NCBI GenBank assembly: GCA_020831635.1
Contig: JAFIGC010000020.1
Span: 1-55,780 of the forward strand
Direction of reading: 5' to 3'
Length of the DNA stretch: 55,780 nucleotides
Origin: Verrucomicrobiota bacterium
Lineage (GTDB): Bacteria; Verrucomicrobiota; Kiritimatiellia; SS1-B-03-39; UBA6053
The notes beneath the pieces were generated by a model. The model was not told where the DNA came from. It worked only from the letters and a program-made list of their open reading frames with translations, and did not search any database. Positions 4,214-6,594 of the stretch are shown in pieces; within the stretch, counting starts at the first letter, position 1, and every line of letters starts with the position of its first letter. The translations under genes and the position numbers were made by a program.

Positions 4214-5230
4214 ATGGATGAATCTCCCCGAAATGATTTTGTGCGTGTCGATCAGGATTTCGAACTGAGCCTGCGCCCCACCCGTTTTGCCGATTACGTG
4301 GGGCAAAACAAGGTGCGGGAGCGTCTTGAGCTTTTCGTGGCCGCGGCCAAGGGCCGGGGGGATGTGCTGGATCACGTGCTGCTGTCGGGTCCGCCCGGGT
4401 TGGGCAAAACCACGTTGGCGCACATTCTCGGGGAACAGATGGAGGTGAATGTGAAAACCACCTCGGGTCCGGCGATTGACAAGGCGGGCGATCTGGCGGG
4501 TCTTCTGACGGGTTTGGAAAAAGGCGACATTCTCTTTATCGATGAAATTCACCGGATTCCGCGCGCGGTGGAGGAGTATCTGTATTCGGCCATGGAAGAT
4601 TTTGTCATCGATATTCTCATCGATCAGGGGCCCAACGCGCGGTCGGTGCGCTTGAATTTGCCGCGGTTTACGCTGGTGGGCGCCACGACGCGCATGGGGT
4701 TGTTGACGGCGCCGTTTCGTTCGCGCTTTGGCATGAGCAATCGCTTGGATTATTATTCCCACGAGGATTTGAAAAAGATCATCACCCGATCCGCGCGCAT
4801 ATTGAATGTGGACGTGGATGAGCCGGGGGCGTTGGAAATCGCGGCCCGCAGTCGCGGCACGCCGCGGATTGCCAACAATCTGTTGCGCTGGGTGCGGGAT
4901 TATGCCCAGGTCAAAGCCGACAATCGAATCAACAAGGACATCGCCGACCGCGCCCTGACCATGTTGGATATTGATCAATTTGGTTTGGATGAGATGGACA
5001 AGCGGTTGTTGGAAACGATTCTCCTGAAGTTTTCGGGCGGTCCGGTGGGGTTGGGGAGTCTCGCGGTGAGTGTCGGCGAGGAAGCGGGCACGATCGAGGA
5101 GGTGTACGAGCCGTATTTGATTCAGGAAGGGTACATGAAGCGCACCCCGCAGGGGCGCGTGGTCACGCCGCTATGTTACGAGCGTTTTGGGTTGAAGCCA
5201 CCTGCAAACGTGCAGCGCGAGTTGCTCTGA
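4214..5230 (+). CDS. ruvB: Holliday junction branch migration helicase RuvB
   Basis: RuvB is the hexameric AAA+ motor that drives branch migration of Holliday junctions with RuvA during recombinational repair. The 338-residue length is normal. The Walker A motif GPPGLGKTT is at residues 59-67 and the Walker B DEIH at 110-113. The family signatures LRP..F.DYVGQ, GATTR.G.L..PFR.RFG and [18 protein letters not shown] are all present, and the C-terminal winged helix ends with the R.V.TP.CYERFGL type sequence. It is monocistronic here, without ruvA or ruvC beside it. A purine-rich GGAGGGG lies about 20 bases upstream, rather far for a Shine-Dalgarno site. Confidence 0.98.
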
Positions 5231-5303
5231 ACGTCAGAGTATGGGCTTATGTATGGCTTGGCTTTTCGTGTGGGAGTCAGATTGTGGTGGGTGAGCTGGA
5301 AGA

Positions 5304-5510
5304 TGGGAAAAAGCCTTCGGGGGAGACCGGACTCTTGATCTCACGCCGCCTTTCGCACTTTCGGGGGGACGTCACCATCAGAAGATGCGTTAGCCCCCGA
5401 AATCGAAAAATCCGACGTAAGCTGAAGAGCCCGGTCTCCCATAACCCTGAAGGATTGAGGAGAAGAATGCCGAAGGCTTTTCCCAGTCACACCCGCGCGC
5501 CCCCGCGCGG
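5304..5510. other. Large self-complementary element, candidate structured RNA or non-mobile MITE
   Basis: Three nested inverted repeats lie in the gap between ruvB and cysK. The outer stem pairs 5304-5320 with 5470-5485 (perfect but for one bulged A). The middle stem pairs 5321-5336 with 5425-5440 (16 positions, one mismatch). The inner stem pairs 5359-5367 with 5394-5402 (perfect). The two outer stems abut on the left side and are separated by 29 unpaired bases on the right. A perfect 7-bp GC hairpin follows at 5493-5510. I see no match to tmRNA, SRP RNA, RNase P or a known riboswitch. The overall size (about 180 nt) and rod shape recall 6S RNA, but this is not shown. An open frame across the region looks like chance. 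Confidence 0.5.
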
Positions 5511-5604
5511 TTTACCCTGTAATGTTAGTGTGGGGGGTATTTTCTTGGCGCAGGGTGACGGGAGAGCCGATCTCCGCATCGGCAGGGGCGTAGGGGGCTT
5601 CGTG

Positions 5605-5641
5605 AAAAAACACGGGATGGCCGTTTGGCCATCCCGTGTTT
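5605..5641 (-). terminator. Rho-independent terminator of cysK
   Basis: A perfect 15-bp hairpin (5608-5622 with 5627-5641, 4-base loop) lies 20 bases beyond the cysK stop. Read on the minus strand it ends in a run of six T residues. Confidence 0.85.
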
Positions 5642-5661
5642 AAATTTCGGATGAAAGGATC

Positions 5662-6594
5662 TCAGCCGATGTACTGTTGGAACAGCCAGGTGGAGAGATA
5701 GCGTTCACCGGTGTCGCAACCGATGGTGACGATTTTCTTGCCGGCGTTTTCGGGGCGTTTGGCGTATTCGACGGCGGCGTGGACATTGCCTCCGGCGGAA
5801 ATGCCGATGAGCACGCCTTCTTCGCGGGCGCAGCGGCGGGCCATTTCGCCGGCTTCCTCTTCGTTGATGTGCAGGACTTCATCCACGACGTCGGGGTAGT
5901 AGTTTTTGGGGATAAACCCGGCACCGATGCCTTGGATTTTGTGGGGACCGGGGTTTCCGCCGCTCAAAACGGGGGAGCCTTTGGGTTCGACGGCCACGGC
6001 CTTGAAGTTGGGGTTCTTTTCCTTGAGGAATTTTCCGGCGCCGCTGATGGTACCGCCCGTGCCCACGCCGGCGATGAGGGCATCGACGTTTCCGTCGGTG
6101 TCTTCCCAGATTTCCGGGCCGGTGGTGGTGTAGTGGATGTTGGGGTTGGCGTCGTTGTTGAATTGTTGGGGCATGAAGGCGCCTTCGGTCTGTTCATGCA
6201 GTTCCGCCGCTTTGGCGATGGCGCCGGGCATGCCTTTTTCCGCCGGGGTGAGTACCAGCTCCGCGCCGAGGATTTTCAAGAGGTGACGCCGTTCCAGACT
6301 CATGCTTTCGGGCATGCAGAGCACGCACCGGTAGCCTTTGGCGGCCGCGACAAAGGCGAGGGCAATGCCGGTGTTTCCGGAAGTGGGTTCGATGATGGTG
6401 CCGCCGGGCTTGAGAAGGCCTTCCTTTTCCGCGGCTTCGATCATGGCTTTGCCAATCCGGTCTTTCACGCTATACAGCGGATTGCGCGATTCGAGCTTGA
6501 TGTACACGTCCGCGACGCATCCTTCGGTGACACGGTTCAATTTGACCAGTGGGGTTTTGCCCACGGTATCCACAATGTTTTCATATACGGGCAT
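5662..6594 (-). CDS. cysK: Cysteine synthase A (O-acetylserine sulfhydrylase)
   Basis: This enzyme makes cysteine from O-acetylserine and sulfide using pyridoxal phosphate. At 310 residues it is typical of CysK. The PLP lysine is Lys44 in the SVKDRIG motif; the substrate-binding TSGNTG loop is near residues 70-75, and the phosphate-binding GTGGT loop near 180. The C-terminal GISAGGN signature and a closing [10 protein letters not shown] complete the match; a four-residue C-terminus ending in Ile is compatible with binding by CysE. An AGGAG ribosome binding site lies about 8 bases before the ATG. The 150-bp upstream gap is AT-rich and contains a weak promoter-like pair. No cysE lies beside it. 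Confidence 0.97.

Follow-up and report, generated by a model that had tools for sequence, protein, structure and literature searches.

The locus and its fold

The window, a stretch of 55,780 nucleotides from contig JAFIGC010000020.1 of a Verrucomicrobiota bacterium, holds a strongly folded sequence in the gap between two convergent genes. Going by their translations, we take the gene at 4214–5230 (plus strand) to be ruvB and the one at 5662–6594 (minus strand) to be a cysteine-synthase-like gene, called cysK here. A mechanical inverted-repeat search returned the nested stems as two pairs of arms. The outer one, 5306–5320 with 5470–5484 (15 nt, 93% complementary), provides the left and right arms of stem P1; the other, 5321–5367 with 5394–5440 (47 nt, 77% complementary), provides the two arms of the inner stems, which contain conserved internal mismatches. 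The apical hairpin occupies 5374–5390, and a one-sided internal loop at 5441–5469 is variable in its letters (27% diversity among ten copies of the same genome) and nearly constant in length. A GC hairpin can be read from the sequence 3′ of the nested stems (5493–5510, arms 5493–5499 and 5504–5510); several different stems are found there among copies, each perfectly paired. The long imperfect hairpin and the GC hairpin together make up the core element, 5301–5518 (covariance-model match 5301–5520), of which 20 complete copies were aligned.

Over 5290–5500, the minimum free energy of the plus strand as RNA is −93.9 kcal/mol (z −5.7) and that of the minus strand −106.3 kcal/mol (z −7.6), with 0/200 dinucleotide shuffles as good in either case; the plus strand folded as single-stranded DNA gives z −5.0. 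The fold of 5306–5510 is far better than shuffles on both strands, and the structure is real. The nested stems of 16, 16 and 9 bp and the GC hairpin described by a previous sequence-only reading are thus present, though their lengths differ slightly from those given. The extent assigned to them, 5304–5510, does contain the fold, with the second and third stems within 5321–5367/5394–5440, but related sequence runs on at both sides. A weakly conserved flank (5255–5300) accompanies the core in genus g1, and a REP-like hairpin repeat of 51 bp, separate from the core (5547–5597), lies at a near-constant spacing to it in many copies of the window's own genome.

A plus-strand ORF (5173–5643) runs across the window copy and minus-strand ORFs recur, but a protein-coding reading was rejected because the translated frames of other copies contain stops. 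Across the window nothing reached the Rfam gathering score, and the element itself had no hit at E ≤ 5, so a known RNA family was rejected. The 6S-like RNA suggested by the sequence-only reading is not supported: size and a long imperfect stem are shared with 6S RNA, but there is no Rfam match, and the element is multicopy and mobile. Between the convergent genes there is also a perfect 15-bp inverted repeat (5608–5641), with a diverged version at the same place in the congener G002; it is probably the shared terminator of the two genes.

Copies, homologues and insertion

BLAST with 5280–5540 as query found 29 matches in the window's own genome (G000; 6.0 Mb, 308 contigs), 10 of them complete (L001–L010). 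Many of the others end at contig ends, as expected of a palindrome that breaks assembly, and some are truncated within contigs, on either side. Many contigs of this genome end inside the palindrome (L011, L013, L017, L019–L023, L027); the copy number is consequently underestimated, and genes beside copies may be split. Among 39 genomes searched by BLAST, three were positive: the own genome, G002 (21 matches) and G001 (1 match). A single-copy RNA gene is ruled out by the multiple copies in G000 and G002. G003, of the same genus as the window genome, had no match by BLAST or by covariance-model search.

The covariance-model check reached further. A model built from 16 copies (R1) found three divergent full-length homologues, missed by BLAST, in G009, which belongs to another genus of the family, and a second model (R2) added one divergent full-length homologue in G005. 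In the R2 search 5/39 genomes match, all of one family, with G009 and G005 representing one other genus; the per-genome counts of 26, 2, 24, 4 and 1 take in partial copies as well as palindromes matched again on the reverse strand. A phylum-wide search with R1 and stricter filters was positive in 1/387 genomes and missed the G005 copy that R2 later found. A pattern scan of named genomes returned 10 stretches in three MAGs, T3Sed10_216 and T3Sed10_339R1 (“PVC group bacterium”) and M50B83 (“Kiritimatiellae bacterium”). Phage and plasmid collections contained no match to the element, nor did viral contigs (one pattern), and a phage or plasmid source was dropped on these grounds. A weak model match in L086 proved to be a GC-rich REP-like hairpin and not a copy.

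In G002, ruvB and cysK are likewise adjacent and convergent, and the core element is absent from the gap: from the ruvB stop to the shared terminator-like hairpin there are 66 bp, against 376 bp in the window. Since the gap is syntenic and element-free in a congener, the element was inserted in the window genome. Upstream of a gene that we presume to be gatC, G000 and G002 both have copies, and their opposite orientation suggests separate insertion events. A copy adjacent to a presumed obgE was found only in G009. All 10 other searched genomes match the query for that locus, and the contigs matching its obgE part are not among the element-bearing ones; the synteny comparison gave no clean empty gap, the second gene being located elsewhere.

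No protein recurs beside copies, except frames reading through the element and the gatC-region pair. Of the 16 copies with a called left neighbour, 11 follow the 3′ end of a gene on the element's plus strand, and 10 of 18 face the 3′ end of the gene on the other side; this is only a mild trend towards gene ends, with genes called by a custom codon score. As in small mobile repeats, there are dispersed copies without a protein gene, and an orthologous site is filled in one genome and empty in another (ruvB–cysK, window versus G002); the copy number that varies among relatives and the absence of a recurring neighbour gene add further support. The many copies, the truncated copies and the empty orthologous site point to a new family of small mobile elements rather than a stand-alone regulatory RNA gene, and support the palindromic mobile element that the sequence-only reading had listed among its options.

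Maintenance of the fold and strand asymmetry

The pairing was followed across copies in several alignments. In a MAFFT alignment of 16 copies made from sequence only and not fitted to structure (A1), 98.2% of cells pair and 8 pairs are changed on both sides; compensatory cells number 31 against 11.1 in shuffles, and 0/500 shuffles reach 31. With the three G009 copies added, 28/68 pairs are changed on both sides (104 compensatory cells against 23.2 in shuffles). For all 20 complete copies, G005 included, the figure is 42/68 with pairing kept, and there are 131 compensatory cells against 26.2 (0/500 shuffles); sliding the partner by 1–3 columns leaves 6–10 pairs. The alignments A3 and A5 were fitted to structure, so that the pair counts 28/68 and 42/68 lean towards it; such fitting inflates the counts, though the slid controls and the unfitted alignment suggest a smaller effect than the excess seen. 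The RNAalifold structures come from the data that were also tested, and copies inherit changes from one another, so that compensatory cells are not independent events. The pairing of the large hairpin and of the GC hairpin is kept by compensatory changes across the lineages found.

Diversity among the ten G000 copies is unevenly spread. The stem arms differ by 1.6% and 2.4% and the outer right arm by 0%, while the apical part reaches 4%, the GC hairpin 15%, the linker 21% and the internal loop 27%; the internal mismatches G-G (37/138) and T-C (39/136) are kept in 19/19 copies. A recently copied inert repeat would diverge evenly, which is not the case with arms near 2% and a loop at 27%. Together with the compensatory changes, this indicates that the fold is maintained and not the sequence. 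The sequence-only reading had named two refuting outcomes, many near-identical copies in the genome, or no transcription and no covariation: the element is a repeat, which speaks against a single RNA gene, yet it covaries, as a maintained fold should.

In 20/20 copies the minus strand gives the more stable fold, by a mean of 18.6 kcal/mol, and many A-C mismatches of the plus strand become G-U pairs on it (106 cells, minus-strand consensus). A column test favours this strand by 19 to 3 on minus-strand pairs (sign p 0.0009) and by 20 to 5 on the union (p 0.004); it is not significant on plus-strand pairs (10 versus 5, p 0.30) or shared pairs (9 versus 3, p 0.15). The preference for the minus strand is also found, by a mean of 8.5 kcal/mol (sd 5.2), in composition-matched shuffles. 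We take this only as a hint that the minus strand is the folding strand, and such a preference would fit RNA and also a single-strand DNA substrate. Inferring the strand from folding asymmetry of this kind is the subject of PMC1892782.

Proposed mobilization and its alternatives

With moderate confidence, we read the window copy as one of a set of dispersed, non-autonomous palindromic mobile elements of about 220–250 bp, moved in trans, most plausibly by an enzyme acting on a folded single strand. Y1/HUH single-strand transposases handle IS200/IS605 ends and REP hairpins in such a manner, and the mechanism that we propose is modelled on them. An enzyme encoded elsewhere, putatively of Y1 type, would recognize the folded strand by its long hairpin with fixed mismatches and by the GC hairpin at one end, would make its cuts close to the outer stem's base and past the GC hairpin, and would place the element back into intergenic DNA, leaving no regular target duplication. 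Where transcribed, the hairpin would form a very stable part of the neighbouring gene's RNA.

Some observations sit uneasily with this proposal. No transposase is linked to the element: Y1 genes are widespread in the family, both where the element is present and where it is absent, and no copy lies at the 23 Y1 or reverse-transcriptase loci scanned (12 of 21 own-genome Y1 matches, 8 Y1 loci of relatives and 3 reverse-transcriptase loci). Neither excision nor fresh insertion was seen, and the hairpin is about six times the length of a REP. At one copy (L010) a 21-bp direct repeat stands 55 nt ahead of the core match and 177 nt past it, which counts against the proposal because the Y1 mechanism does not predict it; it is the only case in 17 copies and encloses neighbours of the copy as well. 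In the other 16 of 17, the longest shared flanking words are 7–10, as in mismatched pairs, and the G009 copies have sharp ends at the hairpins with no evident duplication. An autonomous parent with the same ends was not seen in the loci examined, in an assembly that breaks at copies. A reverse-transcriptase partner was rejected: RVT_1 occurs in 6/11 genomes, is absent from the element-bearing G009 and is present in the element-free G004 and G007. Retrotransposition-type 5′ truncation is ruled out by copies truncated on both sides.

It is possible, but unlikely, that the element works as RNA, with minus-strand structured transcripts or mRNA 3′-end hairpins selected for RNA function and mobility secondary. 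The strong covariation over 20 copies, the strand asymmetry with its G-U cells and the positions at gene 3′ ends would agree with this, and in other bacteria RNA read from repeats of this sort is described as acting on mRNA (PMC2229807). However, composition-matched shuffles share the strand preference, the column test fails on plus-strand and shared pairs, the element is absent from the congener G003 and many copies are decayed. No promoter-like site was found in 5200–5700 either; the novel regulatory RNA once suggested for this gap has the strong covariation in its favour. Distinctly less probable is a classical MITE with GTTCGAAAAGCCTTTT as terminal repeats, mobilized by a cut-and-paste (DDE) transposase. 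This inverted motif does bracket some g1 copies (L007, L029, L030, L032), but among 16 complete g1 copies it is found on the left in 6 and on the right in 9 (one doubtful); its distance varies, it has up to 4 mismatches, and the counts come without a chance control. Moreover, it is absent at the window copy, the ends of the G009 copies do not show it, and it is present without the core; target duplication does not exceed the control except in L010. The outer stem lies near the element ends, and the TTCGAA motif is inconsistent.

We give very little credence to covariation as a by-product of replication, in which template switching between arms restores the match with no selection on the fold. 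Plus-strand pairing is nearly all Watson–Crick (7 G-U and 28 unpaired of 1218 cells), and PMC7202029 and PMC3820800 describe template switching at imperfect inverted repeats. Nevertheless, arm correction should erase mismatches, while G-G and T-C are kept in 19/19 copies, and correction alone does not predict arms at 1.6–2.4% beside a loop at 27%.

Other repeats occur around the copies. The REP-like repeat of 5547–5597 is abundant in G002, scarce in G003 and G001, and also found without the core; at L090 (18–209 and 988–1092, contig C51) a Y1 (RAYT-like) gene has inverted pairs of it to either side, probably a REP/RAYT system. A second Y1 gene (L086, 1–1000) is surrounded by a different repeated GC-rich hairpin, so the own genome seems to hold several REP families. 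Short intergenic repeats with a REP-like hairpin and no core (L068, L072, L066) open with a motif containing TTCGAA, which in L072 closes the repeat too; they may be a further miniature element. In the flanks of L007, L008, L016 and L026, a repeat containing ATCAGTGTAATCAGTGGTTGAATTTC recurs near TTCGAA motifs.

Among described elements, the closest kinds are YPAL/RU-2, ERIC and REPINs (PMC2229807, PMC3116915, PMC8266576). YPAL/RU-2, the Yersinia palindromic element of about 168 bp, is similarly non-autonomous, intergenic and not A+T-rich, with internal inverted repeats, a long stem-loop and known empty and filled sites (PMC2229807); it differs in host phylum and sequence and has target duplications of 3–26 bp, against one of 17 copies here, where there is also a second GC hairpin and a fold conserved across genera. 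ERIC/RU-1 (127 bp, enterobacteria) is likewise an imperfect palindrome dispersed between genes, forms a stable long stem-loop and lacks an identified transposase (PMC2229807); it differs by its TA-ended terminal repeats and its target duplication, neither of which is seen here. REPINs and REP/RAYT systems share the single-strand hairpin, many copies, Y1 genes, stem mismatches and compensatory changes (PMC3116915, PMC8266576); compensatory changes are described as common in REPINs (PMC3116915), and stem mismatches are read by single-strand transposases in REP and IS608 hairpins (PMC8266576). Unlike REP units of 20–40 nt, the core has about 220 nt and no recognized GTAG/GGAG tag, and no copy stands beside the 20 Y1 loci scanned; the neighbouring repeat at 5547–5597 fits REP better than the core does. 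Failing the REP definition and lacking the usual target duplication, the element is a variant of that kind and belongs to no named family.

Within the mobile-element reading, we hold it doubtful, though worth stating, that the element spreads by way of a strand-specific folded molecule of about 220 nt, either RNA or a single DNA strand, whose hairpin with its fixed mismatches and variable one-sided loop would be bound by a trans-acting enzyme. If true, this folded transposition substrate would far exceed REP or IS200/IS605 ends in size and elaboration. Small bacterial mobile repeats are usually alike owing to recent spread. Here 42/68 pairs have been rewritten and two genera nonetheless share the fold, so that the shape seems to be required by the mobilizing machinery or by the cell. 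In our search of an open-access literature collection, no such repeats were described for Kiritimatiell-named bacteria. The element offers a concrete and testable substrate with which to look for its enzyme, in a bacterial class that has been little studied.
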